Origin: a virus
IMG/VR virus record: IMGVR_UViG_3300033153_006092
Coordinates: 1 to 50,021 of that record
Length of the DNA stretch: 50,021 nt
Reading direction: 5' to 3' (one strand)
Positions 2,181-35,569 of the stretch are shown here, one piece after another. Position 1 is the stretch's first letter. Every line of letters starts with the position of its first letter. A program made the position numbers and the translations under genes. Below the pieces are notes generated by a model. It did not search any database, was not told the DNA's origin, and saw only the letters and a list, made by a program, of their open reading frames with translations.

Positions 2181-3308
2181 ATGATACTGTTATTGGCTAT
2201 TTCTCTTATTGCATTTGGTATACTACTAAGTGTAGCTACCGCATATGCAGATATAACACAAGGCCAAAAAGATGAACTTCTAGCCACCACTTTACAGCTA
2301 CAAGAAACTGAGTTAATTAAACATACCTATTTGGAAAATCCTATATATGTTTTCTTTTCTAATAGTAGATATACTAAAAAAGTAAAAGGTGGTCATGAAA
2401 TTCGGTTTCCGGTTGTACTTGATAAATCGGACACTTTTGATTGGTTTGGTGTTGGAAGTACATTTAATCCACAACCTAAAAAGATATTAGGTTGGTCACA
2501 TACGGAATTAAAACAGGGTGCAGGTCATGTTACTTTTGAAGATGTAGAATTGTGGCAAGCCAGTGGCCCTGGTAATTTTGTAGGAATGGTAGAAGCAAAG
2601 ACTGAGGAACTTGAACAGTCTATAGGCGAGTCATTGAATTTGACTGCTTGGGGAGATGGAACAGAGGATGGTGGATTAGCACCTACTGGTTTGACTGGTC
2701 ATATTCCTAATCCGCCTACAAGTGGTACATATATGGGTCATGATTTGTCTACAGAAAATTGGGGTAGATGTTGGTATAATGATAATGAGACTATTGGCCC
2801 ACATTCATTGACAAGCCCAACTGGTAATGCCCCGCATACAGAAGGTGCAATAGGAGATATAAGTGATAGATATCCACTTATAATAGATTCTCTTAACCTT
2901 ATGTATGCTTCATGTGTTAGTAATAGTGATAATAAAAGTGATATTTTTCATATTACCGATTTGCAGACACAATTGTGGTATAAACAAATTCCATTTAGAT
3001 GCCCCGGTTTTGATATAGGTGTAACAGAGGGGCCATTTAATATTGGAATTGAAACTGCTCATTTTATGGGTTCGCCAATTATTCCAGATACAGTTGATAA
3101 TGGTGCAATAGAAGGCGAGTGGCGTATGGTTAATATGCGGTATTACAATATGTATATTGACACTGACCATTTCTTCAAATGGGTTGGGCCACGTTCTCCT
3201 TATAATGCTCTAAGAACTTCAAAGTATCTGGTTGTGCGTTTCCAATGGGTTAACAAATTCCCAAGAAAGCAAGGGCTTTTAGTCGGAATAGCTACTTGGC
3301 AGGCTTAA
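2181..3308 (+). CDS. Major capsid protein with unusual hydrophobic leader
   Basis: The product is 375 aa. The body matches the phage capsid family that starts with a DELLATTL-type helix, followed by a segment on extended arms (GGHEIRFPVVLDKSD), a helix with KTEELEQSIGESL and GDGTEDGG, which is the HK97-like fold used by many short-tailed phages. Unusually, about 23 hydrophobic residues precede this (MILLLAISLIAFGIL... ending ATAYA), looking like a signal peptide with an AYA|D cleavage site. The start at 2181 has AGGAG eight bases upstream and no good in-frame start lies closer to the conserved part, so the leader appears real. It follows the scaffold and precedes a decoration-like gene. Confidence 0.8.
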   Translation: MILLLAISLIAFGILLSVATAYADITQGQKDELLATTLQLQETELIKHTYLENPIYVFFSNSRYTKKVKGGHEIRFPVVLDKSDTFDWFGVGSTFNPQPKKILGWSHTELKQGAGHVTFEDVELWQASGPGNFVGMVEAKTEELEQSIGESLNLTAWGDGTEDGGLAPTGLTGHIPNPPTSGTYMGHDLSTENWGRCWYNDNETIGPHSLTSPTGNAPHTEGAIGDISDRYPLIIDSLNLMYASCVSNSDNKSDIFHITDLQTQLWYKQIPFRCPGFDIGVTEGPFNIGIETAHFMGSPIIPDTVDNGAIEGEWRMVNMRYYNMYIDTDHFFKWVGPRSPYNALRTSKYLVVRFQWVNKFPRKQGLLVGIATWQA

Positions 3309-4245: not shown

Positions 4246-4851
4246 ATGGACGATAAATTAGCGGTTAAAAATGCGGAAATTGTTATAGTGAAGGGTACTC
4301 AAGAACCGCCTGTTGGAAAGTTGTATTATGGTTTACCATTAGAAAACGGTTTGACTCCAGTGATGATGCGAAGAGTTAGACGATCTGGGAAAAATAAGAA
4401 AATATCTGATAGAGTGGTATGGTATGAAAAGAAGATAATGCAAGAGAATGGGTTAGTAGTGCCATTAAGGGCGCATATAGTAGTTGCGCCAACAGAAAAA
4501 GAAATAGAGGCAAACGCCCTTTATCCAGTAGCAATATTTAATATCAGCCGTGCTAGATTTGATGGTATAATGAGAATAAAAAGGTGGAAAACTTTTCCTT
4601 TTTTAAATGATAATGGAGTACCCTATATGGTAACTAACGGAATATTAAAACCATTTTCGTTTGTAATTGTAAATAATAATTATATTCCCAATGAGCTACC
4701 AAACGGGAATACAGATGATGGAAATTGGCAAGTTGGTGCGCCTGTAACAGGCCAATATATAATAGAGTTCTTTAACAACTTAATAGAAAAAGCTAAACCA
4801 TTAGTTTATTCTACACAGGTTGCTAAAGCAATAGAGGCTAAAACAGAATAA
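4246..4851 (+). CDS. Unknown structural-region protein
   Basis: The product is 201 aa and is not recognised. It mixes basic stretches (MMRRVRRSGKNKKISDRVVWYEKK, residues about 40-63) with beta-rich segments and ends in a charged helix. No signal peptide or membrane segment is seen. It lies between the decoration gene and a tail-collar-like gene, starts with GGAG at good spacing, and its stop overlaps the next ATG. A head completion or connector role would fit the position, but nothing in the sequence shows it. Confidence 0.6.
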   Translation: MDDKLAVKNAEIVIVKGTQEPPVGKLYYGLPLENGLTPVMMRRVRRSGKNKKISDRVVWYEKKIMQENGLVVPLRAHIVVAPTEKEIEANALYPVAIFNISRARFDGIMRIKRWKTFPFLNDNGVPYMVTNGILKPFSFVIVNNNYIPNELPNGNTDDGNWQVGAPVTGQYIIEFFNNLIEKAKPLVYSTQVAKAIEAKTE

Positions 4852-5204
4852 TGATATTGACAATAGGAAAACAAAGAGCGGCATCTGTATTAACTAACAA
4901 TTCGTATATTACTCATCTTGCGGTAGGTGATGATGATACGGATGAGACAGCTGGTGATTTAGCTCTCGGTAATGAGATATACCGAGTTGCTTTAACTACG
5001 GTATCACAGAATGATCAGGTATGTTGGGGCGTTGCTACTATAACAGCTAGTGATATTGGTGCTGGTTCTTATACTATTAAAGAGTTCGGTTTTGTCGATG
5101 CGGCAAGTGGAGGCCATTTTCAATGCAGAGTGGTGTTAGATACAGGAATAACTATAACAGGCGCTCAGAAACTAATAATAGTATGGGGCGAAGTGTTTCC
5201 GTAA
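4851..5204 (+). CDS. Small tail-fibre/collar-type domain protein
   Basis: The product is 117 aa. The pattern ITHLAVGDDDT...LGNEIYRVALTT...ATITASDIGAGSYTIKEFGFVDA...KLIIVWGEVF resembles the N-terminal domain of phage tail-collar fibre proteins, where short repeats of this kind form the attachment point of a fibre. Here the domain stands alone. The start overlaps the previous stop (TAATG) and the last 22 bases overlap the start of the glycosyltransferase gene at 5183. It is probably a virion protein, but the exact site is unknown. Confidence 0.6.
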   Translation: MILTIGKQRAASVLTNNSYITHLAVGDDDTDETAGDLALGNEIYRVALTTVSQNDQVCWGVATITASDIGAGSYTIKEFGFVDAASGGHFQCRVVLDTGITITGAQKLIIVWGEVFP

Positions 5205-6172
5205 TAGAGAGAATAACCCGAGGTTTTGGTGATGGGATAATGCTTCGTCCTGCTATTATTGGATATATGAAAAAGTACCCTACTTATGATGTTAAGTTAC
5301 ATATAAGAGAACCAGAAGCATGTGTGTTTGAGGATATTGAAGGTTTAGATATTGTACCTATATCAACATTTTCTAAAAGTAAATCGGTTATAAGTGATAA
5401 AGATTCTATTACTAGAGCCAAAAGAAATAGATTAAAGCGTTATAATTATTCTAAACAACTTATAGAAGGTTATAATAATCCTATTATATATAGAGTATCC
5501 GAATCTTGCGCCAAGTATGAAATGGAACATATAGATAATGTTGATAAGTCTAGGCAAGAAATTTTTTGTGATGAACTTAATGTACAATTTGATATGGCAA
5601 ATTACAATGTTAAATTTTCTTTAGAAGAAGAACAATTTGCAGATGATTTTCTTGGTGGTATAAGTAGAGCTATTGGTATTCATATACAAACTGCAGATAG
5701 TTGGCGTGATTATAGATATATGTATTTAAGAAAGCGCCAAACAAAAATGTGGGATTTGGTAGATTATATAGCCAAAAGATTTAATGGTTATATAATAACT
5801 TTTGACAAAGATTGTAAATATGAAGGGAGGCAAAAGAATGTAAAATCTTTGGCTAATGTAACGTTTAGGCAGGCATGGGTTGTAATGTCTAGGATGCTTT
5901 TAGGTATTGGCCCAGATTCTGCTGGAATTCATGCTTTTGGTTCGACATTTGTTCCAACTTACGGATTATTTGGCCCGACTAATCCTAGACACAGGATGCT
6001 TTATCCTTACGTTGGTTGGCCAGATAAAGGAGATTGTCCATTTGGTAAACAATATTGTTGGTATAATTATTGTCAAAATAATGGAAAACCAATGGTATAT
6101 TGTTTGAATAGGCGGTCAGTTAAATACTATTGGGATGATATAAAGCGGAAAATGGGGAGGTTTATAAAATGA
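5183..6172 (+). CDS. Glycosyltransferase family 9-like (heptosyltransferase-like)
   Basis: The product is about 329 aa. Features of the GT-B heptosyltransferase type are an N-terminal loop RGFGDGIMLRPAI and, late in the protein, LLGIGPDSAGIHAFGSTFVPTYGLFGPTNP, the nucleotide-sugar region typical of GT9 (PDSG..H.A...G.P...LFGPT). The C-terminal 60 residues are Cys/Trp/Tyr-rich (CPFGKQYCWYNYCQNN) and may bind metal. A longer frame opens at 5123, but the first residues there overlap the previous gene and look unrelated; ATG 5183 fits the family. This is the first gene of the modification island, and its stop overlaps the next start by four bases. Confidence 0.75.
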   Translation: MGRSVSVIERITRGFGDGIMLRPAIIGYMKKYPTYDVKLHIREPEACVFEDIEGLDIVPISTFSKSKSVISDKDSITRAKRNRLKRYNYSKQLIEGYNNPIIYRVSESCAKYEMEHIDNVDKSRQEIFCDELNVQFDMANYNVKFSLEEEQFADDFLGGISRAIGIHIQTADSWRDYRYMYLRKRQTKMWDLVDYIAKRFNGYIITFDKDCKYEGRQKNVKSLANVTFRQAWVVMSRMLLGIGPDSAGIHAFGSTFVPTYGLFGPTNPRHRMLYPYVGWPDKGDCPFGKQYCWYNYCQNNGKPMVYCLNRRSVKYYWDDIKRKMGRFIK

Positions 6173-6852
6173 GATTTTTTAGGCGGTCACAGGTAAAACA
6201 AAGTTATATATCTTATGTTTCAGAGCGGTCTGTTAGAGGTTTACATGATACAATTTTAAGAACTGAAGAACCAAAATATTGTTTAGAAATAGGTTTGAAT
6301 GGTAAAAGTGAAGATTGTATTACATTAGATCTTGGTTCAAAAGCTGATATAGTTGGAGATATTAGAGGTGCTTTTGCACAACATGGTGGATATAAACCTG
6401 TTGAAGAAATTGAAAAATTGCCATTAGATTATTTTCATCTTATTAAAGCGGTGCATGTTATTGAGCATATAGAATGGTTGTATCAACAAGTAATGTTTGA
6501 CTGGTTTTTTGATTTAATTGCACCAGGCCACTATCTTTATGTAGATACGCCAAACTTAGATTATATTATTGAGATATATAATAATGGTATTCAGTCCATG
6601 AATAAAGGTAACAAGTTAGAATATCCAATGTCTGACCATCCAGATTTTACAAAAGATAGGTATATAGAGAATTTTACACCATGGGTTAATTATAAGATAT
6701 TTAGTGGTTGTAGTCCTGGTGATTATCATCATACCTGTTTGAATAGTATTTGGTTGGGTAATCTTCTACATGCCGCTGGTTTTGAAAATATAAAAATACA
6801 TAGTGGTAGGTCATTGATTGCTATTGCTATGCGACCGAAGGAGAGCTTGTAA
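6169..6852 (+). CDS. SAM-dependent methyltransferase (class I-like)
   Basis: The product is 227 aa. A shortened SAM-binding region is suggested by YCLEIGLNGKSEDCITLDLGSKADIVGDI, followed by LIKAVHVIEHIEWLYQQVMFDWFFDLIAPGHYLYVDTPN. The HVIEH motif and the following PG turn are hallmarks of type 11/predicted sugar-pathway methyltransferases. The glycine-rich loop is weak, so the cofactor site may be altered. A good Shine-Dalgarno (GGGGAGG) precedes the ATG. Its neighbours suggest a sugar as substrate, though a protein or lipid cannot be excluded. Confidence 0.7.
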   Translation: MRFFRRSQVKQSYISYVSERSVRGLHDTILRTEEPKYCLEIGLNGKSEDCITLDLGSKADIVGDIRGAFAQHGGYKPVEEIEKLPLDYFHLIKAVHVIEHIEWLYQQVMFDWFFDLIAPGHYLYVDTPNLDYIIEIYNNGIQSMNKGNKLEYPMSDHPDFTKDRYIENFTPWVNYKIFSGCSPGDYHHTCLNSIWLGNLLHAAGFENIKIHSGRSLIAIAMRPKESL

Positions 6853-8285
6853 TGGCTATTAAATTAAATTGCGGTGCAGGCGGAGTTATTCTTTCAAAAG
6901 AAGATGGTTGGATAAATATTGATATTAGGCAATTAGATGGTATAGACCTGGTATTAGATTTGGAAAACAATGATTTTCCATACGAAGATAATTCGGTAGA
7001 TGAAATTAGGTTACAAGATTTTTTAGAACATTTGAGTAAAGATAGGCAATTACCGTTTTTAAATGAAGTACATAGAGTAATGAAATTAAATGGTAAATTA
7101 TTTATTCAGTTACCAGATTTGGAAACATTATCTAAACGGTATTGTAATGTTTTAGAAAACCCTACTAAGCTACAACACCCTTTAGATGCCTATCAATTAT
7201 CGAGTGCTTTATATGGTGGACAGGAATATGAAGGGAATTTTCATAAGTGGGGTTATGACCAATATACGCTTAGTCTTATATTAGAAGAAGTTGGGTTCTC
7301 AATTAGAGAGATAGGTTCTGACGGTGGTCAAAATTTGTTATGCCATGCTCAGAAAAGTCCTGCCGCATTTTATATAATGATTAGTGGTGGTTTGGGCGAT
7401 TGTTTACAGATATATTTCTCTAATCCACCATACTGTAATCATGAGGATTTAAAGGGAGTAAATTATTTTCCTACTGGTCAATTGTTGGCAAGTTTATGGC
7501 TTAAACGTTTGAAAAGTTTTAAGTTGAAACATCCTAATAAATCGGTGTATTTGATTATAGAATCACATAATCCTTCGGCTATAAGGTTCTTTGATAATGT
7601 ACCATATATAGAAGGTTGTATATCTAAACCTTGGGATTTACCTAAACCGTGGGAAGAAGATAAATGGAGTCAGGTGCATTTTGGTTTATACAATTTAGAA
7701 CATTCGTATAATCCAGAATTATATGAACCAGAAGAAGCCAAAGTATATTTGTCATCTTTAGAAGAAATGCAAGTAGATACTATTGTTAATAAGGGTGATT
7801 ATATTATTGTTCATCCATTTTCTGGCGTGTCTAGGGATAGGCAAGCTATTAACCAAGATCAGTATAAAGAGATTGTAAAGAAAATTATTAAGAAAGGTTT
7901 GAACGTTGTTGTTATAGGTGGTAGTTATAAGACTAATGTAGTTGGTAAGAAATATAATATAACAGAACAATTTGATATGAAGTGTGACGGTTTAATCAAT
8001 TTGGTGAATAAGAGTAGTATTGCTGTTACGGTTGAACTTATACATAGGGCAAAAGGTTTCATAGGAACTCATAGCTCTATGGTTCTTATGGCTTGGTATA
8101 AATCATTGCCAACAGTTTGTATTGTGCCAATGTACCATGATGGTGGTCAACCATGGGAAGAGTTTTTTGCCGATGAAGTTAATCCTACTACTTGGGGTAA
8201 TAGGCAACCATTTAATAAAACTGTCATGGTTGAAGATAGAGATATAGTTGATTTAGATGAAATAGTGGAGTGGGTGGTGAAATGA
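6852..8285 (+). CDS. Fused methyltransferase - GT9 glycosyltransferase
   Basis: The product is 477 aa with two domains. Residues about 1-170 form a predicted sugar methyltransferase (LNCGAGGV...GWINIDIRQLDGIDLVLDLE, DFLEHLSKD, EVHRVMKLNGKLFIQLPD). Residues about 175-477 begin with ISGGLGDCLQIYF and carry YIIVHPFSGVSRDRQAI, VVIGG and FIGTHSSMVLMAWYKSLPTVCIVP, the core of GT9 heptosyltransferase-like enzymes. Such fusions suggest sequential transfer and methylation of one sugar. The gene starts one base within the previous stop and has GAAGGAGAG upstream. The substrate is unknown. Confidence 0.75.
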   Translation: MAIKLNCGAGGVILSKEDGWINIDIRQLDGIDLVLDLENNDFPYEDNSVDEIRLQDFLEHLSKDRQLPFLNEVHRVMKLNGKLFIQLPDLETLSKRYCNVLENPTKLQHPLDAYQLSSALYGGQEYEGNFHKWGYDQYTLSLILEEVGFSIREIGSDGGQNLLCHAQKSPAAFYIMISGGLGDCLQIYFSNPPYCNHEDLKGVNYFPTGQLLASLWLKRLKSFKLKHPNKSVYLIIESHNPSAIRFFDNVPYIEGCISKPWDLPKPWEEDKWSQVHFGLYNLEHSYNPELYEPEEAKVYLSSLEEMQVDTIVNKGDYIIVHPFSGVSRDRQAINQDQYKEIVKKIIKKGLNVVVIGGSYKTNVVGKKYNITEQFDMKCDGLINLVNKSSIAVTVELIHRAKGFIGTHSSMVLMAWYKSLPTVCIVPMYHDGGQPWEEFFADEVNPTTWGNRQPFNKTVMVEDRDIVDLDEIVEWVVK

Positions 8286-9328
8286 TATTAGGATTTTTAG
8301 GGTATGGAGAAGATAGTTTTTTCCATAGCGGAACAAATAAATGGATAGAGCCTAATGCTAACGATAGGTTTCCTAATATAGGTGTGTGGGGGCCGAATTC
8401 AAATGCTGTATATAGAAGGTTATATCCTAATGATCCATTTGTTATGTTAGTTACTAAAGACCCTAATCTTGAATTTGCTAATAGGTGTGATTTTATTATA
8501 TTTCAATCTTCTACAGGGCAAGACCCGTTATTCTTAGAACATTGCGATAAAATTGAAGTGCCTATAATTCATTGGCAACATGGTGGTTATGAAAATATGG
8601 TACAATTATCGTATGGTGCTGTTTTACGAAATAAGCAATGTATGGATAAATGTGATTTGGTTGTCACTACAGACCATAGATATGTGTCTCTTTATAAAAC
8701 GTGGACTAAAACACCTGTTATATATTGCCCGCTGCCTTATCCTGTTAATTATGCACTTAAAACTTTATCTAAAAGTGTAGATATTGAATATGATTTATTT
8801 ATACCGTATGGTATAAATATGACATATAATAATAGAAGAAATGGTTATGTCATGTCAGCGGTTGCTGATAAAATTATTACAAATGTAGAAAGTTTTAATA
8901 ATTGTTTAATGATAGATAGTGGTAATACTGATAAGTCGTGCGATTTTTTGCAACAAATGGGGTTCCAAAATATTACTATAATTGACCGTAAAAAATATAG
9001 TGAATATCTATTATCATTGAGTAGATGCAGGGTAATTATAAATTTAGATAGACACATGGCTTGTGGTAAGGTTGCTATTGATGCTGCTTTGGCTCGTAAA
9101 CCTGTTATAATGTCTAACCGAATTCCTTATGCCCAATATATATATAGTGGTATAAAATTACAAGACCCATTTGATGTTGATGCGGCATTGGCAACCGCAG
9201 AATTGATTCAACGAGGTGGGTGGGAACAGTCTTGGATAGATATGGCTTTTAACAGAGCACAGGATTTTAGTATGGAGAATGTTGGTAAGATATTGGAGGA
9301 AGCAGTTGGAAATCTTAAATTTAATTAG
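8282..9328 (+). CDS. GT-B-type glycosyltransferase (probable)
   Basis: The product is about 348 aa. It starts with MILGFLGYGEDSFFHSG and contains an acceptor/donor-like layout: HWQHGGYENM and CDLVVTTDHRYVSLY in the N-terminal half, and YLLSLSRCRVIINLDRHMACGKVAIDAALARKPVIMSNRIPYAQYIY in the C-terminal half, which resembles the donor-binding end of GT4-like enzymes (E/D...A.g.PVI.S). The usual EX7E is not exact. ATG 8282 overlaps the upstream stop as ATGA and is preferred to GTG 8270. Family placement is by pattern only. Confidence 0.6.
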   Translation: MILGFLGYGEDSFFHSGTNKWIEPNANDRFPNIGVWGPNSNAVYRRLYPNDPFVMLVTKDPNLEFANRCDFIIFQSSTGQDPLFLEHCDKIEVPIIHWQHGGYENMVQLSYGAVLRNKQCMDKCDLVVTTDHRYVSLYKTWTKTPVIYCPLPYPVNYALKTLSKSVDIEYDLFIPYGINMTYNNRRNGYVMSAVADKIITNVESFNNCLMIDSGNTDKSCDFLQQMGFQNITIIDRKKYSEYLLSLSRCRVIINLDRHMACGKVAIDAALARKPVIMSNRIPYAQYIYSGIKLQDPFDVDAALATAELIQRGGWEQSWIDMAFNRAQDFSMENVGKILEEAVGNLKFN

Positions 9329-10076
9329 TGCAGGTGAATGGTTAAATGGGAAACGTAAGGCTACCTATGAATCTTATATACAATGGTCAAAAAATAATGA
9401 TAGTGTAATTCAAGTATCATATCCAAGAAGCGGCAGACATTGGATTGAATCAATAATAAAGTGGAATTTATTAGGCAAAGATGGTTGTGCGGATATACAA
9501 AACTTTGACCCAAATAATTCTAAACATTATTATTTTACTCATGTAAAAAATTGGCCGGCATTTGATGCTAATGGTAAATATGTTTATTTGATACGTGACC
9601 CAAGAGATGTATTTGTGTCCTTTATGTATTACCGAACTTGTATAAAACAGTCTTTGACAGTAGAACAATCTTTCAATGATTATGATTTTCTTGGTAAAGA
9701 GGTTAAGTCGTGGAAAAATATGTTACAGGTTTTTATTGAAACTGATTGTATTATTATTCAGTATGAAAGGATGTGTTTGTACCCTAAAATAGAATTGAAT
9801 AGGATAGCCAGATTTATTGGTGTAGATATGGTGGATAATATTGACTGCCGTGATAATGGTCATTTTATTTATTATAATCCAGATAAACCTTGTCAACCAA
9901 TAAAGAAACCTTTTGAGTCAAATATAGAGAGATATAATATCAGATGTTTGACATGGCAAAAAAATCCAAGATTTACCAAAAAACATTTTGATATTATTTG
10001 GGGTGCATTGAAAGATATAATACCATACTTTGGTTATTTAGAAAACGGTCATTCGCTAAATTTATTAGAAAGGTAA
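9306..10076 (+). CDS. Sulfotransferase (PAPS-dependent)
   Basis: The product is about 256 aa. Two cofactor motifs of sulfotransferases are clear: VSYPRSGRHWIESII (5'-phosphosulfate-binding loop, usual form YPKSGTTW) near residues 38-51, and YLIRDPRDVFVSFMYY (3'-phosphate-binding region) near residues 94-109. It would move sulfate from PAPS to a sugar or other hydroxyl group. The open frame begins at ATG 9279, but GGAGGA five bases before TTG 9306 makes that the more likely start; either way it overlaps the preceding glycosyltransferase. PAPS would have to come from the host, since no sulfate-activation genes are present. Lys of the loop is replaced by Arg. Confidence 0.85.
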   Translation: MEILNLISAGEWLNGKRKATYESYIQWSKNNDSVIQVSYPRSGRHWIESIIKWNLLGKDGCADIQNFDPNNSKHYYFTHVKNWPAFDANGKYVYLIRDPRDVFVSFMYYRTCIKQSLTVEQSFNDYDFLGKEVKSWKNMLQVFIETDCIIIQYERMCLYPKIELNRIARFIGVDMVDNIDCRDNGHFIYYNPDKPCQPIKKPFESNIERYNIRCLTWQKNPRFTKKHFDIIWGALKDIIPYFGYLENGHSLNLLER

Positions 10077-10081
10077 AACTA

Positions 10082-10810
10082 GTGAGATTTTCTGTTATTA
10101 CTATTATTGCTAACCTAGATAAATATAGAAAATATAATTTTGATAAATGTGTTACACAATGGTTAAATCAAGACTTTGATGATTATGAATTTATATGCGT
10201 AGAAATGTCATATAAAAAAGATTTTTATATTCATGGTAATTATAATTACTATAGTGTGATTGGTGACGAATTCAAACGTGGTTGGTTGTTGAATGTTGGT
10301 GCAAAGAAATCTAAAGGCGATATATTAGTATTTGCTGATTCTGATATATTGGTACGAAAAGATTATTTAACTAAAGTTGACAATTGGTTTAAAATTGGTA
10401 TGAAAAGCGCAATAGGATTAAACCAATTGATTAGATTAAATCAAGATGGTTCAATTAAAACTTCTTGTATTGCTTCTATAAAAGGGGCGGCTGGCGGTAT
10501 AAATATATTTGATTCTCATTTCTTTTTTAAGTTATTTGGTGGTTGGAATGAAACGTTTACTTTTGGTGACGGTAATGATAATGATGGGATGTTCAGGGCA
10601 GAAGCCGCAGGTGGTCATGTAAAAATATTTCCAAGTCCAGTTATTCATCTTTGGCATCCTGGTAAAAAACATGGTATTAAAAATATGGAATTGTGGTTAT
10701 ATACACAACGGTATCCCGAAATAGTTACAGAAAAGATTTTGGAATTGGGTATTGGAAAAGACAAACCTACGGTTTATAATATTGAGGAATTGAAAAGGTT
10801 AACTAAATGA
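10082..10810 (+). CDS. Glycosyltransferase family 2-like
   Basis: The product is about 242 aa. It starts VRFSVITIIANLDKYRKYNFDKCVTQWLNQ and carries NVGAKKSKGDILVFADSDILVRKDYL, the GT-A fold with its DSD metal-binding triad, then GAAGGINIFDSHFFFKLFGGWNETFTFGDGNDNDGMFRAEAAG, typical of the galactosyl/polymerase-type C-terminal part. GTG 10082 is the likely start because GAAAGG lies eight bases upstream; an open frame from 9998 overlaps the sulfotransferase and adds unrelated residues. Its stop overlaps the next start (ATGA). It would add one sugar, probably using a nucleotide-diphosphate sugar from the host. Confidence 0.75.
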   Translation: MRFSVITIIANLDKYRKYNFDKCVTQWLNQDFDDYEFICVEMSYKKDFYIHGNYNYYSVIGDEFKRGWLLNVGAKKSKGDILVFADSDILVRKDYLTKVDNWFKIGMKSAIGLNQLIRLNQDGSIKTSCIASIKGAAGGINIFDSHFFFKLFGGWNETFTFGDGNDNDGMFRAEAAGGHVKIFPSPVIHLWHPGKKHGIKNMELWLYTQRYPEIVTEKILELGIGKDKPTVYNIEELKRLTK

Positions 10811-11370
10811 ATATACAAGGATGGATGAGTCAATCAGAACTTATGTGGTTACAAACTATGTCAAAATCAATGCCATCTAATTCTTTAATAGTAGAAGTTG
10901 GAACATGGAAAGGCAGAAGTACGGCCGCTATATGCAATGCCTTAAATAAAAAGAGCACTTTTGTTACTATTGATACATGGTTAGGTAATAGTAATTTATT
11001 TATATATCAAAATTCATCAGCATCTTTAGTTACTGATATATTTTTAGAATTTTTAGATAATATGAAATTACTGGGTCATAATTTTAAGTGGTATAAAAAA
11101 AATACTTTTGGTTTATTTTATCTAAGAATGAAATCAGTTGAGGCCGCAAAATTATTCGATGATAAAAGTATTGATTGGTTGTTTTTAGATGGTAATCATA
11201 CAGAGGCAGATAAAGATTGTGATGCTTGGGGAGTAAAGATAAAGAGCGGCGGAGTTATATCCGGCCACGATTTTACAAATGACTTTATTAAATTGACTAC
11301 AGATGTGAAACAAAGGTACCCAAATTTATCAGTGGCAACGAATACAGGTATATGGTATTCAACAATTTAA
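10807..11370 (+). CDS. Class I SAM-dependent methyltransferase (Methyltransf_24-like)
   Basis: The product is 187 aa. The SAM-binding loop reads LIVEVGTWKGRSTAAICNAL (residues about 28-47), followed by an acidic residue in TFVTIDTWLG. DWLFLDGNHTEADKDCDAW and IKSGGVISGHDF complete the family pattern seen in macrocin-O-methyltransferase-like sugar methylases. A metal site formed by D/H residues in DGNH and GHDF is likely. It has GAAAAGG upstream and overlaps the glycosyltransferase before it. Sugar O-methylation is the best guess. Confidence 0.75.
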   Translation: MNIQGWMSQSELMWLQTMSKSMPSNSLIVEVGTWKGRSTAAICNALNKKSTFVTIDTWLGNSNLFIYQNSSASLVTDIFLEFLDNMKLLGHNFKWYKKNTFGLFYLRMKSVEAAKLFDDKSIDWLFLDGNHTEADKDCDAWGVKIKSGGVISGHDFTNDFIKLTTDVKQRYPNLSVATNTGIWYSTI

Positions 11371-11383
11371 GGAAAGAAAATAA

Positions 11384-12376
11384 ATGAAAGATAATGAATA
11401 TTCATTATACAAATCTTTGCATCATCAATATGCGCTTAAAAATAAAATACCAGTATTATGCTATTTTTTTATAACGCATAAATGCAATAATAAATGTCCA
11501 ACTTGTTCTTCTCGATATGGTCAAAAGTTTGATGAAAATATAGAAATGCCTATTGAAGATGCGTTACCTTGTTTAATAAAATTGAAAGAGTTAGGACTAA
11601 AAGCTATTTCATTATCTGGCGGTGAGCCGTTGATGCATTCTAATTTTGGTGGTTTTGTAAGAGCCATAATTGGTATAGGATTAGATATTGCGGTTATAAC
11701 AAATGGTAGATTATTATCTAAGAAATATTTAGATGTTTTGAAATGGCTATCTTGGATTAGAGTTTCCATAAATGCAGTAAACCCAGATATATATAAATTG
11801 GTTCATGGTGCAAAAATGCCAGAGAGGTATTTTCTTAATCTAAAAGAGACTATTCCTAAGCTTAGAAAATACGGTGTAACTACTGGTGCTAGTTTTTTAA
11901 TAAATAAAAATAATATACAAGATATGCTTGATGCTGTAATAATGGCAAAAGAAATTGGTTTTGAAACATTTAGATTTAATTATACAAGAGATAGAGATGG
12001 TCTTATCTTTTACAAAGATGAAGATCTTTACAAGATAAAAGATAATTTATCTATCGCTATAAATTATAGTTGTGATAGTTTTAGAGTGCTTCCTTTGTCT
12101 GATAGGTTATTATATAAAATTAGTAAACCGTATACACATTGTTACCAAAGTGATATATCCTTATGTATAACTGCCGATGGCGGTGTATATGCTTGTCCAT
12201 TTTTGGCTAATAATCCACGTGCATTTTATGGTTCGATATATGAAAAATCTATAGATTATATTTGGTTAAACAAAAAAGAAATAGATGTGACTAAATGTCC
12301 TATATGTTGGCAAACAAAGAAGAATGAATTTATGGCATACTTAATGTCTAAACCTACTCATGTTAATTTTGTATAA
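11384..12376 (+). CDS. Radical SAM enzyme with C-terminal cysteine (SPASM-like) region
   Basis: The product is 330 aa. C34-x3-C38-x2-C41 (HKCNNKCPTC) is the radical SAM cluster site, followed by the GGEP motif in LSLSGGEPLMH-type context (ISLSGGEPL). The last 90 residues have several more cysteines (HCYQSDISLCITADGGVYACPF and KCPICW) in a SPASM-like pattern that binds extra iron-sulfur clusters. Relatives act on peptides, sugars or cofactors. In this island it may modify a sugar or a virion peptide. AAGGAAAG lies upstream. It closes the island; tail genes follow directly. Confidence 0.8.
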   Translation: MKDNEYSLYKSLHHQYALKNKIPVLCYFFITHKCNNKCPTCSSRYGQKFDENIEMPIEDALPCLIKLKELGLKAISLSGGEPLMHSNFGGFVRAIIGIGLDIAVITNGRLLSKKYLDVLKWLSWIRVSINAVNPDIYKLVHGAKMPERYFLNLKETIPKLRKYGVTTGASFLINKNNIQDMLDAVIMAKEIGFETFRFNYTRDRDGLIFYKDEDLYKIKDNLSIAINYSCDSFRVLPLSDRLLYKISKPYTHCYQSDISLCITADGGVYACPFLANNPRAFYGSIYEKSIDYIWLNKKEIDVTKCPICWQTKKNEFMAYLMSKPTHVNFV

Positions 12377-12386
12377 GGTGTAAACA

Positions 12387-12572
12387 ATGGCTACATTGAT
12401 ATGGCATAAGGTTGATACATTCTTATCAAAATTACGGTCTTGTCAAAGATGTTATAATCAATCTGGTGATGGTATGATATACTCTTTAGTAGTATACGAC
12501 TACCTTTATTTGACAGAAATTACAACTATTAGTTTAAAGGAAATTGATTCAACAACAGGAGTTAGATGGTAA
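12387..12572 (+). CDS. Small unknown protein
   Basis: The product is 61 aa (MATLIWHKVDTFLSK...) with two cysteines (CQRC) and a hydrophobic middle. It is not recognised. It has AAGGTG at good spacing, sits between the radical SAM gene and the tail adaptor gene, and overlaps the latter's start. It could be a small structural protein or a substrate peptide of the neighbouring radical SAM enzyme; nothing in the sequence decides. Confidence 0.5.
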   Translation: MATLIWHKVDTFLSKLRSCQRCYNQSGDGMIYSLVVYDYLYLTEITTISLKEIDSTTGVRW

Positions 12573-13276
12573 TGTTACTACATCAGATAAGAACAGCCTT
12601 TGCCGCCCGTATAGATAACACAGTGTATTGGACTACCGCACGTCAAAATGCCTTGGCGAATGATGCTATGCGGTCAATAGCTTCTCATTTTGGTACCAGA
12701 ATGAAAGGTTATCAAATATTATATACAGTAGATGGTCAACAACATTATGCTTTACCTGTAGATTTTATTGCCAATGATTTATTATATACTAACACTGATG
12801 AATTGATGCGAAAGATTAAATTTGTTGATAGCCCAGATGAAATATATAGCAAATATTATGACCCTGGTACTTATGAAGGTTCACCAGAACTTGCATTTAT
12901 ATGGCCTATAGATGAACGAGATAATCTATGGCTTTATCCTATACCAGATAAGCAATATACACTAGAATGGTTTTACTATAGAGAAGCACCTGAATTGGTT
13001 AATAATAATGATGAGCCTATGATAGCCAGAGAATTTCATACCTTTATTGTTGATTATATGGAAATGCGAACCAAAGTATTTGATGGCGAAATGAGTGAAA
13101 TGGAATATACGGCACTATGGGAAAAAACCTTAACAAAAATGAGTATGTTTAAAACCGCCAAAATGGCATTGACAGTAGAGAATACACCGGGTAATGCTAG
13201 AAGAAATTTTCCAGTTAGAGCTGGTGATTTGATAGACCCTGCTGATTCTAGCGGTGGAATATGGGGCATATCATGA
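12566..13276 (+). CDS. Head-tail/tail adaptor protein (podovirus gp4-like)
   Basis: The product is about 236 aa. The pattern of a helical N-terminus (NALANDAMRSIASHFG), a strand-rich middle (QHYALPVDFIANDLLYTN) and WLYPIPDKQYTLEWFYYREAPELV followed by helices is typical of adaptor proteins that connect the portal to the tail in P22-like and related short-tailed phages. ATG 12566 and ATG 12572 are both possible, with AGGAG at 12557-12561. It precedes the gp10-like gene, as in many podoviruses. Confidence 0.65.
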   Translation: MVMLLHQIRTAFAARIDNTVYWTTARQNALANDAMRSIASHFGTRMKGYQILYTVDGQQHYALPVDFIANDLLYTNTDELMRKIKFVDSPDEIYSKYYDPGTYEGSPELAFIWPIDERDNLWLYPIPDKQYTLEWFYYREAPELVNNNDEPMIAREFHTFIVDYMEMRTKVFDGEMSEMEYTALWEKTLTKMSMFKTAKMALTVENTPGNARRNFPVRAGDLIDPADSSGGIWGIS

Positions 13277-20915: not shown

Positions 20916-21068
20916 TATAATTCCCGAATTCAAGCACTCGACACAACCAACGCCTTTACACTTTGGGCACTCTATTATTACCATATTAGATGATTCCCTA
21001 AGTTGTTTAACCCATTGTTTTGTCCGTTTAATAAGTTGTTCTTTGCTATTCAATTTATTTTCCACCAT
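20898..21068 (-). CDS. Small zinc-ribbon protein
   Basis: This 56-aa frame starts MVENKLNSKEQLIKRTKQW and contains CPKCKGVGCVEC, a CxxC...CxxC zinc-knuckle pattern that chance would rarely give. It overlaps the phosphatase stop by 19 bases and the convergent ejection gene by 18. The ribosome site is weak, so a later ATG (MVIIECPKCK, with AGGGA upstream) may be used. It would be the last gene of the leftward operon. It may be a DnaJ-type or other zinc knuckle; function unknown. Confidence 0.5.
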   Translation of the reverse strand: MVENKLNSKEQLIKRTKQWVKQLRESSNMVIIECPKCKGVGCVECLNSGIILTPRS

Positions 21069-21535
21069 TTTTTGTTAATAGCTGGCCAATATCTAATATC
21101 TTTCAATGGCCTAAAATTAGGGTCTCGTTTTGCTAAATCTTTTGGATAATGTTTAACTAGAATATCCCTGGCTCTTGCATCTGTATAACCTAGTGCCCTT
21201 AATAACTTGTAAGCCACACTGACAGACCTATTTCTACCAGCCGCACAATGAATAAGTAAATGATTTTTACCATCATTCATTGGATGTAGAACCCAACAAC
21301 CAAACGTAGTACAGGTATCCCAAAATTCTGAACCTTTTGGTTGTCCATCGTCTGGTGTATAAAAATGCAAAACTATTATCTCATTGTTAGGTATAAACCT
21401 TATATCACAATCTCTAGTCAAACTAATGATATGAGTTATACCCATATTTAGAACATCGTTCATTGTAGGTTGCTCGTTAATAGCACCACCAACATATATA
21501 TTTTCTTCTGTTCTTAACCTTTGTATTCTTGGCAT
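21050..21535 (-). CDS. Dual-specificity protein phosphatase-like
   Basis: The product is 161 aa. The signature LIHCAAGRNRSVSVAY at residues 94-109 gives the catalytic Cys97 and Arg103 of the HCx5R loop, with a candidate general-acid aspartate at 62-63 (YTPDDGQP). Length matches a minimal dual-specificity phosphatase domain. It would remove phosphate from proteins, nucleotides or lipids; the target is unknown. GGAG precedes the ATG and the gene overlaps its upstream neighbour by one base. Such enzymes are uncommon in phages of this size and may counter host signalling. Confidence 0.85.
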   Translation of the reverse strand: MPRIQRLRTEENIYVGGAINEQPTMNDVLNMGITHIISLTRDCDIRFIPNNEIIVLHFYTPDDGQPKGSEFWDTCTTFGCWVLHPMNDGKNHLLIHCAAGRNRSVSVAYKLLRALGYTDARARDILVKHYPKDLAKRDPNFRPLKDIRYWPAINKKWWKIN

Positions 21536-28286: not shown

Positions 28287-29174
28287 CTAAAATATTGTCA
28301 ACTGATGACCAACATTAACTAACATTTTATTCTTCCATAACACTTCGGTTCGTTTATAATCTTTCTTCAATGCACCTGCACCATGGACTACAGATGCTTG
28401 ACATACGGTATCTATTTCAGTAACTTCCCAACCTTCATGCTCTTCAAAAAAGTTATCGTATGTAGCATTATGGTAACCACTCAACAGCACATACCCTTTA
28501 AGATTATGTAATACTTCTAGTAATTCTTTATGTTCACCCCGTGACATTTCTATTCTATAACCAGACTTCACTTCTTTGCCACGCTTAGTATTAGTTCTTT
28601 CTCTACTTTCATGTATATAAGGCGGGTCTGCATATATAAAAGTGTACGGTGTATCATACTTCTGTAAACATTTAACGGCGGGACTATGCTCTATTTGTAT
28701 ACTTCTTAGCCGTTCTACACATTGTGGCAATCTGGCAACAGCAGACAGCCAATTTCTAACAGCATCAGTTGTTCTACCGTGACTCCAACCACCTTTCAAA
28801 TCTCCAGACATAGATTGCCTAGAACGTATAAAAAATTCTACCGCCCATCGCATTTTCTTATCTATTATCTCATGAGTAGGCCATAATTTTAATATCTCTT
28901 TAGCATCCATATATTCTTCTCTGCTATATGGTAGCAGATTAACCAGTTTAATAAATTTATCACCATCATCTCGAAGTACTCTATAAAAGTTTACGATTAA
29001 ACTATCCCAATCATTTAGAATTTCTAACTTGGTAGGTGGCAACGCAAAGAACATTGATGCACCGCCAGCAAATGGCTCTAAATATATATCATACAATTCC
29101 TTCGGCGGAATATGCTCTAACAATTTGCCGGTTAAATGACCTTTCCCACCAAACCACCTCAACGGGCTATTCAT
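28287..29174 (-). CDS. dam: D12-class adenine-N6 DNA methyltransferase (Dam-like)
   Basis: The product is 295 aa. Motif order is that of D12 methylases: RWFGGKGHL (6-14), YLEPFAGGASMFF (31-43, SAM binding), and catalytic DPPY at 183-186 (IYADPPYIHES). It methylates adenine, commonly in GATC, although the site cannot be read from the sequence. No restriction partner is nearby, so it is an orphan methylase that may protect phage DNA or mark it for replication. Its product runs the usual length. GGGGT lies six bases before the ATG. Confidence 0.9.
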   Translation of the reverse strand: MNSPLRWFGGKGHLTGKLLEHIPPKELYDIYLEPFAGGASMFFALPPTKLEILNDWDSLIVNFYRVLRDDGDKFIKLVNLLPYSREEYMDAKEILKLWPTHEIIDKKMRWAVEFFIRSRQSMSGDLKGGWSHGRTTDAVRNWLSAVARLPQCVERLRSIQIEHSPAVKCLQKYDTPYTFIYADPPYIHESRERTNTKRGKEVKSGYRIEMSRGEHKELLEVLHNLKGYVLLSGYHNATYDNFFEEHEGWEVTEIDTVCQASVVHGAGALKKDYKRTEVLWKNKMLVNVGHQLTIF

Positions 29175-32715: not shown

Positions 32716-33174
32716 TTATCCTTTACTTTTGTGACAGGGCATGTTTGCTCTGCGTCTATCTTGCTCTGCGACTATCAATTTATACTGTGCAATCAATAAT
32801 TTGGTCTGTTCTTCAACCCATTCTTCAAAGTCTAAATGGGCATCATTAAAACCCTTCAACATCATACCACCCTCTTTTTCTGCCTCCTTTCTGTTCTTGT
32901 CGGTAAAAGATTGCGCTTTATCATATAAAACACCATTGCCATTTTCTAATGCAATGTGCCGTCCCTTCATATTCTGGAATTCTATTATTCTAGCACGGTG
33001 ATATGTAACCGAATCTTCATGCTTGCTAGTCACAACTTTAGATAATAATGATACCTCCAATGATATTTGGTCTAATTTAACTTCCATATTCTGTACCATT
33101 GCAAACAAGTTATCAAATGCTGTACCTAACTGGTTTAATTTATCATCTTCACCTAGCAAAATTGGTTTTTCCAT
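32716..33174 (-). CDS. Unknown helical protein ending in a hairpin repeat
   Basis: The product is about 152 aa, starting MEKPILLGEDDKLNQLG, with long helices (FDNLFAMVQNMEVKLDQISLEV) and a C-terminal basic segment. The last residues (AEQDRRRANMPCHKSKG) are encoded by one copy of the hairpin repeat described at 32735-32752, so the repeat seems to have been added to or to have replaced the gene's end. AGGGGG precedes ATG 33174. No family recognised. Confidence 0.5.
   Translation of the reverse strand: MEKPILLGEDDKLNQLGTAFDNLFAMVQNMEVKLDQISLEVSLLSKVVTSKHEDSVTYHRARIIEFQNMKGRHIALENGNGVLYDKAQSFTDKNRKEAEKEGGMMLKGFNDAHLDFEEWVEEQTKLLIAQYKLIVAEQDRRRANMPCHKSKG
32735..32752. repeat. Hairpin repeat copy 1 (stem CAGGGCA/TGCTCTG)
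   Basis: CAGGGCATGTTTGCTCTG folds into a seven-base-pair stem with loop TGTT; one pair is a wobble in this copy. A second half-copy (TTGCTCTGCGAC) follows at 32761-32772. It lies inside the 3' end of the coding sequence 32716-33174. It belongs to a family with copies at 33327, 35313 and 35477, with a related stem at 35668. Confidence 0.7.
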
Positions 33175-33185
33175 TATACTTCCCC

Positions 33186-33374
33186 CTAAATTTGTTTTAG
33201 TTGTTTCGCAACCCATCTGCCTAAATTAGCAGGCAATGGTTTCCCTTCGTTGAAACACTGTACCAATAAATATAGTTGCCGTCTCATGTAACGTATTTGC
33301 CTATTTCTATTGGCTAACTTTTGCGACAGAGCATGTTTGCTCTGCGTCTGTGACAGAATCTGTTTATCAGTCAT
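33186..33374 (-). CDS. Small basic protein carrying a hairpin repeat
   Basis: The product is 62 aa, Arg/Gln/Leu-rich (KLANRNRQIRYMRRQLYLLVQ). Residues about 6-18 (ILSQTQSKHALSQ) are encoded by hairpin copy 2. ATG 33374 is favoured by GGGAG eight bases upstream. The basic helix suggests nucleic-acid binding, but no family is recognised. Confidence 0.5.
   Translation of the reverse strand: MTDKQILSQTQSKHALSQKLANRNRQIRYMRRQLYLLVQCFNEGKPLPANLGRWVAKQLKQI
33327..33344. repeat. Hairpin repeat copy 2 (CAGAGCA/TGCTCTG)
   Basis: CAGAGCATGTTTGCTCTG forms a perfect seven-base-pair stem with loop TGTT, identical at 35313-35330. It lies within the coding sequence 33186-33374. Confidence 0.75.
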
Positions 33375-33442
33375 TGGTTTAACTCCCACCGCTGTTGATG
33401 GCGGTTGTAGCTGCCTACTACAACCGCCATTCGGCTATTCAT
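33371..33442 (-). CDS. Possible 23-aa peptide ahead of 33374 gene
   Basis: The frame reads MNSRMAVVVGSYNRHQQRW and five further codons, ending in TGA that overlaps the next ATG as ATGA. A purine-rich AGAGAGG lies just upstream. The strong hairpin at 33398-33430 lies within it. It may be a leader peptide whose translation affects the downstream gene, or just chance. Confidence 0.3.
   Translation of the reverse strand: MNSRMAVVVGSYNRHQQRWELNQ
33398..33430. repeat. 13-bp perfect hairpin
   Basis: ATGGCGGTTGTAG (33398-33410) pairs with CTACAACCGCCAT (33418-33430) around a seven-base loop, 24 bases before the start of the 33374 gene on the leftward strand. No T-run follows in either direction. 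It could stabilise or regulate the leftward message, for example as an RNase III site. Confidence 0.7.
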
Positions 33443-33573
33443 TGCCTCTCTTGGTGTTTTTAATAGAATATGGCGATGGGTACGTCTATAGCTTAAAGAC
33501 TATAGAATGTTACTCGGCGATACCCGTCACACCATGACTAACTCCTTTCTCCTGCATACTTAACAGGTGTTAT

Positions 33574-33591
33574 CGCTCGGAGGTACGAGCG
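33574..33591 (-). terminator. Short hairpin after 33595-33819 gene
   Basis: CGCTCG (33574-33579) pairs with CGAGCG (33586-33591) around GAGGTA, four to twenty-one bases past the stop of the leftward gene. It lacks a T-run, so it is at best a weak terminator or message-end stabiliser. A second weak structure lies between at 33475-33528. Confidence 0.4.
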
Positions 33592-33594
33592 GTT

Positions 33595-33819
33595 TCAACA
33601 ATCTATTTTTTCCCACTTATACTTTTCTTTGGCATCTTTCAAGAGGGCAGTTATATACGGTTTATCGGCACCTTTGACAAACTTTATTTCAATCGTACCC
33701 CACAGCTTAGAATCTTTGGTTGAGCCATACTGTAATTCTATGCTAATATCCTCATTGGCACTTATAGTCTTAACCGTTTTATGAGTATCAGACTTGATTT
33801 TCATGTAAAGCCTTGACAT
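33595..33819 (-). CDS. Unknown small protein
   Basis: The product is 74 aa with alternating strands (ANEDISIELQYGS, LWGTIEIKFVKG) and a helical C-terminus (ITALLKDAKEKYKWEK). No family is recognised. GGAGGTG precedes its ATG, which follows the repeat-protein gene directly. It is followed by about 200 bases with three hairpins and no sizeable gene before 33374. Confidence 0.5.
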   Translation of the reverse strand: MSRLYMKIKSDTHKTVKTISANEDISIELQYGSTKDSKLWGTIEIKFVKGADKPYITALLKDAKEKYKWEKIDC

Positions 33820-34368
33820 TCAATTCACCTCCCCAAAATCTATACCATCTTCTTCTGTCCAGCCACAACCACATATCCGCTTATGTAATTGCACCATGAA
33901 TGGATAATACTTCCACTTAGCTTTATTATATTTCCGCCTGACTTCATCATACTCCCGCTCGGCTTTATTATACTTCTGCCTGCTTTCATCATACTTCTGC
34001 CTGCTTTCATCATATTTCTGCCTGCTTTCATTATACTCCCGCCGGGCTTCACTATAATTCCGCCCGGCTTTATAATACTTCTGACGGGCTTTATAATACT
34101 TCTGCCCAGCTTCATCATACTTCCGTCCAACTTCATCATACTTCCGCCCAACTTCATCATGCTTTCGCACAACTTCATCATGTTTCTGCCCGACTTCCAG
34201 CAACTCTTCTGGCAAAAGTTTTTCATCTATAAACCGAAATAATTCTAGTCTTATAGATATTTCATTCTCCGGTTTATTTTGTTTAATATATTCCACCCTT
34301 TCGTCATAATCCCAACACCATTCATATAATTCATCATGATGTACATGAAAGGCAAAACCGCTTTCCAT
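33820..34368 (-). CDS. Heptad-repeat coiled-coil protein
   Basis: The product is about 182 aa. Residues about 59-156 consist of 14 consecutive seven-residue units of the type x-x-R/Q-K-Y-D-E, such as VGRKYDE, SRQKYDE and AGQKYYK, which would form a long charged helix. The flanks are an N-terminal acidic part (HHDELYEWCWDYDERVEYIKQN) and a C-terminal GCGWTEEDGIDF. GGAGG lies eight bases before ATG 34368. No gaps interrupt the repeat. It may be a spacer, a DNA- or protein-binding rod or a decoy; unknown. Confidence 0.6.
   Translation of the reverse strand: MESGFAFHVHHDELYEWCWDYDERVEYIKQNKPENEISIRLELFRFIDEKLLPEELLEVGQKHDEVVRKHDEVGRKYDEVGRKYDEAGQKYYKARQKYYKAGRNYSEARREYNESRQKYDESRQKYDESRQKYNKAEREYDEVRRKYNKAKWKYYPFMVQLHKRICGCGWTEEDGIDFGEVN
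33901..34194. repeat. 21-bp tandem repeat block, 14 units
   Basis: On the plus strand, the unit resembles TTCATCATACTTCTGCCTGC and recurs every 21 bases with changes. All six frames show a seven-residue rhythm, so the repeat is at the DNA level, produced by tandem duplication within the heptad-repeat gene. Confidence 0.85.
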
Positions 34369-34793
34369 CACACATACCTCCCTGATTTTATTTGGTCTAT
34401 TTTGTCAAGCAATAACCACTGTTGATGCTTAATAGCCAATTTATGGAAAACCTCAAATGCTTCTTTAGCTTCTCTAAAGGCTTCCCGTGCATCTTTACTG
34501 CATTTATTAAAGGCTTTAATATCTTTTTGCCAAATTGCCCTAGCCTGCATTTGGTCATTATTAGCAGACAGGTAAGCGGCATAACTTATTGCCATTTTAT
34601 TAGCAAGTTTAGCCTTTTGTTTAATAAGGTTATTATATACTTTATTTGCCTTTATGTAACACGCTGACGCATTGACTATTTCAACCGGTAACTCTGTCGG
34701 GTTAACCGGTTCATACTGGTCATTACTAGAATGACCATATATACTCTTGTGGTCAATATTCCAACGTAAGCATAGATGCTGATGTTCTGTCAT
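34368..34793 (-). CDS. Unknown helical protein
   Basis: The product is 141 aa. Residues about 50-130 are a long alanine/lysine-rich helix (AKLANKMAISYAAYLSANN, KDAREAFREAKEAFEVFHKL), likely coiled coil. The N-terminal part (HLCLRWNIDHKSIYGHSSN) is different. AAGGAGG precedes the ATG. It overlaps the heptad-repeat gene by one base and may partner with it. Confidence 0.55.
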   Translation of the reverse strand: MTEHQHLCLRWNIDHKSIYGHSSNDQYEPVNPTELPVEIVNASACYIKANKVYNNLIKQKAKLANKMAISYAAYLSANNDQMQARAIWQKDIKAFNKCSKDAREAFREAKEAFEVFHKLAIKHQQWLLLDKIDQIKSGRYV

Positions 34794-34978
34794 TACTTAA
34801 CCTCCTTTAGTAACTTCCAGTCTACCCCTTCGTTACTCAGTTTATATTGGTGGATAAAGGATAAACAACGGGTTGGATCAATAAACGACAATTTAGGTAT
34901 CAGATAATTCTGTGACCCCTTAACATAGTCATCGCTTGCCAGACAATACAACTTGTGTTTACAGTTTTTGCAATCCAT
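34793..34978 (-). CDS. Small zinc-binding-like protein
   Basis: The product is 61 aa and starts MDCKNCKHKLYCLASDDYVKG, with CxxC and a third Cys within ten residues, a pattern seen in small phage zinc proteins. The C-terminus is unrecognised. GGAGG precedes the ATG; the gene abuts its neighbours on both sides. Confidence 0.55.
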   Translation of the reverse strand: MDCKNCKHKLYCLASDDYVKGSQNYLIPKLSFIDPTRCLSFIHQYKLSNEGVDWKLLKEVK

Positions 34979-35273
34979 TTATCATACCTCCGATGAATAT
35001 TGTTTGGTTGTGACGTGCCTCTTTTTTGCACCAATGCTCAAAATCAAGCGCCTCGATAAAGGTCACCGGTACCCATTTGTTGCGGAGATGCTGTTCCATA
35101 CCTACTGCATACATATAGCAAAATACTTCACAGAAATACTTTACAGGGCTATGGTACAACCCATTAGGCACGTCAAATTGTTGCAATACAGAGTAAGCCT
35201 CAAAGGCATTGGCTACTTCACAATACCAACGAGGACTCGTCTCTGTAACTTGAATATAAACCCTATAGTCCAC
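34959..35273 (-). CDS. Unknown protein with GTG start
   Basis: The product is 104 aa with aromatic and Cys residues (VKYFCEVFCYMYAVGM). No family recognised. The start is GTG at 35273, supported by GGAGGT eight bases upstream. A hairpin repeat copy lies at 35313-35330 in its upstream leader. Confidence 0.5.
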   Translation of the reverse strand: MDYRVYIQVTETSPRWYCEVANAFEAYSVLQQFDVPNGLYHSPVKYFCEVFCYMYAVGMEQHLRNKWVPVTFIEALDFEHWCKKEARHNQTIFIGGMINGLQKL

Positions 35274-35312
35274 TTAGTATACCTCCAAATAGCAGTTATT
35301 GAGCAGTTATGA

Positions 35313-35330
35313 CAGAGCATGTTTGCTCTG
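35313..35330. repeat. Hairpin repeat copy 3 (CAGAGCA/TGCTCTG)
   Basis: CAGAGCATGTTTGCTCTG, identical to copy 2, lies in the leader upstream of the gene 34959-35273. Confidence 0.75.
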
Positions 35331-35476
35331 CGTCTATTACTTTTTTGTATGACCTAACAGATAATTTGGTTATAGTCTAATCTACCACCATTTTAGTTTA
35401 CCTCCCTTCTAAACTTCGTCCACCTAGTATTTCGTGGTTAAATATCTATTATCTAATTAATATCTATCTGTTACGT

Positions 35477-35494
35477 CAGAGCATTCCTGCTCTG
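35477..35494. repeat. Hairpin repeat copy 4 (stem same, loop TTCC)
   Basis: CAGAGCATTCCTGCTCTG keeps the seven-base-pair stem exactly while the loop differs from copies 2 and 3. A kept stem with a changed loop points to selection on, or copying of, the structure. Confidence 0.7.
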
Positions 35495-35569
35495 CGACAA
35501 AGTGTGCCGCTGTTTAATTACAGGTTGTCAATATAACCATTTTTTTATAATTGCTTAGCTGAAATAGAA

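Follow-up and report, generated by a model that had tools for sequence, protein, structure and literature searches.

The DNA analysed here, which we call the window, is the whole of the 50,021-base virus record IMGVR_UViG_3300033153_006092 from IMG/VR. On its plus strand, genes whose ends overlap or abut form one run of about 7 kb, from 5123 to 12376, between the gene for the major head protein upstream (2181–3308, +) and one for a head–tail connector or structural protein downstream (12566–13276, +; phrog_399, E = 1.3e-9). The run opens with a probable GT9-like (heptosyltransferase-like) glycosyltransferase (5123–6172, +; PF01075, E = 0.033, below the cut-off), the true start of which may lie further downstream. 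It continues with a class I methyltransferase (6169–6852, +; PF13489, E = 1.8e-6) and a protein combining a methyltransferase domain (PF08241, E = 4e-5) with a GT9-like domain (6852–8285, +; PF01075, E = 3e-4, below the cut-off). A protein of 352 amino acids (8270–9328, +), glycosyltransferase-like by eye only and matching no family in Pfam, NCBIfam or PADLOC, precedes the sulfotransferase gene (9306–10076, +). Beyond that gene lie a GT2-like glycosyltransferase (10082–10810, +; PF00535, E = 2e-4, just below the cut-off), whose GTG start at 10082 is inferred in a frame open from 9998, a methyltransferase of the Methyltransf_24 type (10807–11370, +; E = 4.6e-15) and a radical SAM/SPASM enzyme (11384–12376, +). 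The glycosyltransferase matches to PF01075 and PF00535 beside the structural genes all fell below the curated cut-offs. Outside the run, a cupin (540–1052, +), perhaps sugar-isomerase-like, may belong to the same programme.

The cassette has a GC content of 31.4%, compared with 37.9% elsewhere, and only 2 of 429 overlapping sliding windows of equal length were lower; this AT-richness suggests an acquired module. Apart from the sulfotransferase, its proteins had few relatives among 259 loci. We considered and rejected viperin as an identity for the radical SAM gene: it scored 61.8 bits with NCBIfam against a cut-off of 180, the NCBIfam and PADLOC pVip matches span the shared core only, a SPASM domain is present and other radical SAM families score equally high.

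The first and last 95 bases of the record are identical, indicating a complete genome of about 49.9 kb, and the terminase, portal, head and tailspike genes in the window mark it as that of a tailed phage. No tRNA genes were found in the 50,021-base record. Among named phages, the terminase and primase have distant relatives only; a scan of viral contigs returned no relative of the terminase, while the equivalent capsid scan gave two distant relatives and none that was close. Several features outside the cassette were also recorded. The stretch 21050–21535 (−) weakly resembles dual-specificity phosphatases (E = 8e-6, below the cut-off), and a 33-nt repeat (ACTTTTGTGACAGGGCATGTTTGCTCTGCGTCT and variants) occurs four times in the early region at 32725–35499, where the copies may be promoter or operator sites. 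A Subtilase-family protein with Ig-like repeats (42618–45248) adjoins the tailspike genes and is an unusual protease candidate, either virion-associated or secreted. The tailspike/beta-helix region comprises three overlapping frames (45245–47671, 47439–48953, and from 48899 through the end and across the terminal repeat to 274), representing either distinct genes or breaks in the frame that may stem from assembly errors. A proposed link by repeat between an ORF at 4851–5204 and the tailspikes was dropped, the repeat being 29 nt only.

The sulfotransferase frame is open from start to stop, as the sequence-only reading had described it, and encodes 256 amino acids from TTG 9306 or 265 from an in-frame ATG at 9279. 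A probable ribosome-binding site, GGAGGA (9295–9300, +), stands before the TTG at a suitable spacing, whereas the ATG lies within the preceding gene without a well-placed site; TTG 9306 is thus the better start. The predicted protein matched PF00685 (Sulfotransfer_1) with E = 8.1e-15 and 55.3 bits, above the curated cut-off of 22 (48.3 bits for the same ORF in the whole-genome search), as well as PF13469 (E = 1.9e-6), and the best matches of a PDB sequence search were sulfotransferases (E = 9.5e-7 for 7d1x). PHROGs and NCBIfam held no family for it.

Both PAPS-binding motifs that had been read from the letters are present and in the right order, namely the 5'-phosphosulfate-binding motif YPRSGRHW (9420–9443, +; residues 39–46 from TTG), of the family form YPxSGxxW, and the 3'-phosphate-binding motif RDPRDVFVS (9594–9620, +; residues 97–105 from TTG). 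The matches to PF00685, PF13469 and PDB sulfotransferases make the pair more than a chance occurrence. Key residues are conserved: in an alignment of the query with 75 homologues, from which homologues outside 180–420 amino acids were left out, all 76 sequences have G52 and R106 (numbering from ATG 9279), and S114 is kept in 75, the query included. H88, in the same numbering, fits the family's catalytic-His column (68/76), while pairwise alignment with the closest relative listed, L146 (described below), shares H83 instead.

Structure prediction, which the sequence-only reading had proposed as a check, recovered a cytosolic sulfotransferase fold. A single-sequence model was dropped (pLDDT 32) in favour of an alignment-guided AlphaFold model built from 63 sequences (pLDDT 76.5, pTM 0.74). 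Foldseek against the PDB gave 441 matches at E up to 10, of which 60 had E up to 0.001, with a match at probability 1.00 and E = 1.6e-5; the 50 matches listed of the 441 were all sulfotransferase-fold entries, mostly animal and plant sulfotransferases. Fold comparison (VIA) aligned 220 residues with 7v1o_B (Z = 14.3, the highest value; r.m.s.d. 4.2), and the model resembles SULT structures with PAP or PAPS bound. The protein therefore shares with the cytosolic SULTs (PF00685; mouse SULT3A1, 7v1o; human SULT1C1, 3bfx) the modelled fold, the 5'-PSB and 3'-PSB motifs and the invariant Arg and Ser. It differs from them in its low identity over the fold match (13–17%) and in its altered C-terminal RKGxxGDW loop. 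The spacing between its two PAPS motifs, from W to R, is 50 residues, and SULTs have a longer one. Family, motifs and modelled fold together confirm the predicted product of ORF 9306–10076 as a PAPS-type sulfotransferase.

Sulfotransferases are already known from phages. The window protein resembles those of Synechococcus phage S-SCSM1 (A0A6M2ZHD0) and Prochlorococcus phage P-SSM7 (E3SP23) in being phage-encoded, with a fold match at E = 9.6e-4 to the former and a weak one (0.15) to the latter. A sequence search of the 'phages' collection gave none at 1e-5 and, among the matches listed, partial ones only (E = 3–7). Matches in plasmids were weak, the best at E = 0.1. Homologues in genome contigs are bacterial and widespread, at no fewer than 75 loci. 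In excerpts of a study of OM43 phage contigs, two phage genomes are reported to carry Sulfotransfer_3 genes, and phage sulfotransferases are treated as auxiliary genes of unclear function (PMC10580990). What is of interest here is that the enzyme belongs to a divergent subfamily and that its gene setting recurs.

The closest relative among the homologues listed is the sulfotransferase of viral contig L146 (IMGVR_UViG_3300028835_000281), which matched at 26% identity across nearly its full length (E = 4e-18). A single-protein scan of viral contigs for close relatives gave no match, and a scan with the window–L146 alignment returned L146 again and no other match. As in the window, the L146 gene sits inside a head-gene block, in a run of terminase, Mu-type portal, NAD epimerase, possible glycosyltransferase (a weak match), sulfotransferase, head protease, cement protein and major head protein. 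It differs in having Mu-type portal neighbours and an epimerase next door rather than methyltransferases and a radical SAM gene. In a further contig, L149, a sulfotransferase, radical SAM genes, methyltransferases and an epimerase lie beside a tail-completion gene, and the second of its radical SAM genes is related to that of the window (E = 2e-10).

We then compared 44 sulfotransferase-bearing viral contigs with 25 random viral contigs. The 44 were at least 20 kb long and came from 76 loci, minus the near-copies L100 and L118; L134 stayed in despite encoding nearly the same enzyme as L132, and L146, at 19.6 kb, is not among them. The controls, also at least 20 kb, came from the 80 loci listed of 95 stretches and include one giant of 456 kb. 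A GT2 match was found in 18 of the 44 and in 2 of the 25 (Fisher p = 0.003), and in 17 of those 18 it lay less than 6 kb from the sulfotransferase, against 6.5 expected under random placement. These 44 do not count as independent, as about a dozen carry a single cassette type, and 26 have no GT2 match. The Terminase_6C profile, considered as a gauge of distance from packaging genes, matched in only 7 of the 44 and was set aside. Seven contigs (L091, L092, L094, L095, L096, L097 and L105) carry a recurring phage cassette in which a protein of 865–1,009 amino acids with two GT2 domains stands directly or shortly after the sulfotransferase.

The supply of PAPS bears on the range of hosts. As had been proposed, the genome appears to have no PAPS synthesis genes of its own: APS kinase, PAPS reductase and ATP sulfurylase found no match in the complete virus genome, so that PAPS must come from the host. 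This part of the earlier claim stands; the suggestion that such dependence limits the possible hosts carries little weight, since a search of 14 control genomes found APS kinase in 11 and the need for host PAPS barely narrows the choice. Among the other sulfotransferase-bearing viral contigs, 6 of 44 had an APS kinase match at E up to 0.001, and in three (L123, L132 and L134) the match was strong (E about 1e-47). Their like gene order indicates one lineage, in which the APS kinase lies about 2 kb from the sulfotransferase within a run of glycan-type genes and, at L123:10203–10931, is fused to DUF2061. By sequence, these three contigs represent a phage lineage with its own predicted PAPS-making step.

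On these grounds we consider it probable, though with moderate confidence only, that the gene encodes a soluble, PAPS-dependent sulfotransferase that sulfates a phage-made glycan or small product with host PAPS, most likely decorating the virion and otherwise the host surface. Under this account an enzyme of the Sulfotransfer_1 (SULT-like) fold would be expressed late in infection with the structural genes and would transfer sulfate from host-made PAPS to a hydroxyl of a glycan or other small product. The acceptor would be built by the glycosyltransferases, methyltransferases and radical SAM enzyme encoded around it, and the finished product would be placed most likely on the virion (capsid or tail) or else on the host surface. 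That the sulfotransferase finishes a phage-made glycan in this way is the most economical account. The earlier proposal that it sulfates a sugar product of its neighbours is a reasonable one, favoured by the single abutting run and by the recurrence of phage sulfotransferases beside glycosyltransferases, and tempered by the several neighbours that score below glycosyltransferase cut-offs. There is a partial precedent in mycobacteriophages (Che8 and relatives), where phage glycosyltransferases are thought to decorate the major capsid protein; unlike in the window, excerpts of the two reports name no sulfotransferase in those virion glycosylation cassettes (PMC11256854, PMC12619734).

The same genes could instead serve to alter the polysaccharide or lipopolysaccharide of the host surface in the course of infection, for instance as a barrier to superinfection, with the sulfotransferase acting on a host glycan. 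The GT9-like domains resemble lipopolysaccharide heptosyltransferases, the widespread bacterial homologues noted above fit such a role, and the beta-helix tailspikes of the phage, one of which has a K1-lyase-type domain, make it probable that it encounters a polysaccharide capsule. However, the cassette occupies a late position between head and connector genes, and no flippase or acyltransferase family matched among the scanned neighbours. We regard host-surface alteration as possible but rather unlikely, and from the place of the cassette among head and tail genes we infer that virion decoration is favoured over it.

A role for the enzyme in modifying proteins or in hypermodifying the bases of phage DNA appears improbable. 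Glycosyltransferase- and sulfotransferase-based nucleotide modification systems are reported in phages in a passage citing Iyer 2013 (PMC10829341), and this phage carries a D12 adenine methyltransferase (28287–29174). Against this, the cassette lies in the structural block, away from the replication genes at 24–33 kb, and a search of the genome for a thymidylate-synthase family gene found none, which makes DNA modification less likely.

The C-terminal part of the enzyme departs from the family pattern, a point that had escaped the sequence-only reading. In place of RxGxxGxW it has a variant third PAPS-contact region, FESNIERYNIRCLTW (9912–9956, +), and the region is also shortened; confidence in its model is low, with a mean pLDDT of 40–51 for residues 191–220. 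For the comparison we reduced 153 homologous loci to 143, leaving out 7 near-identical and 3 short ones. Among the homologues listed, 22 of the 69 viral proteins have the strict form and 47 lack it; of the 74 genomic ones, 39 have it and 35 do not. Its absence is thus not unusual, and because the loop is common rather than defining, we did not count this against membership of Sulfotransfer_1. The combination of SGxHW with R[YF]xxxCxxW occurred in the window and L146 proteins only, of 144 sequences, and the two grouped as a clade of their own (SH-aLRT 96), although many branches of this quick tree are weak. At the level of sequence, they make up a small, divergent subfamily in which the third PAPS-loop region is altered, and the fact that L146 keeps the altered region in outline at 26–31% identity speaks for constraint. 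That the gene is a decaying, inactive passenger, its motifs persisting after the cofactor loop was lost, would agree with the missing and shortened RxGxxGxW region but is very improbable given that the frame is open over its full length and keeps both main motifs, that L146 shares the outline and that many homologues likewise lack the strict loop.

A broader and more speculative reading, which we put forward only tentatively, is that unrelated phages have repeatedly placed sulfation modules, made up of a sulfotransferase and glycan-building genes and in one lineage also an APS kinase, in their head and tail blocks, that these may serve to give the virion a coat of sulfated glycan, and that the window and L146 represent a phage subfamily whose PAPS loop was remodelled for such a substrate. 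We found no sulfated phage glycan in print in the open-access literature, outside which most subscription journals fall; if the reading is true, a sulfated glycan coating the virion would be a way of decorating particles that the literature found does not describe for phages. That several unrelated phages have sulfotransferases next to sugar enzymes within their head and tail blocks offers a testable idea of the function of these sulfotransferases. A sulfated glycan on the particle or on the host surface would add negative charge and could alter adsorption, shielding or sensitivity to depolymerases.
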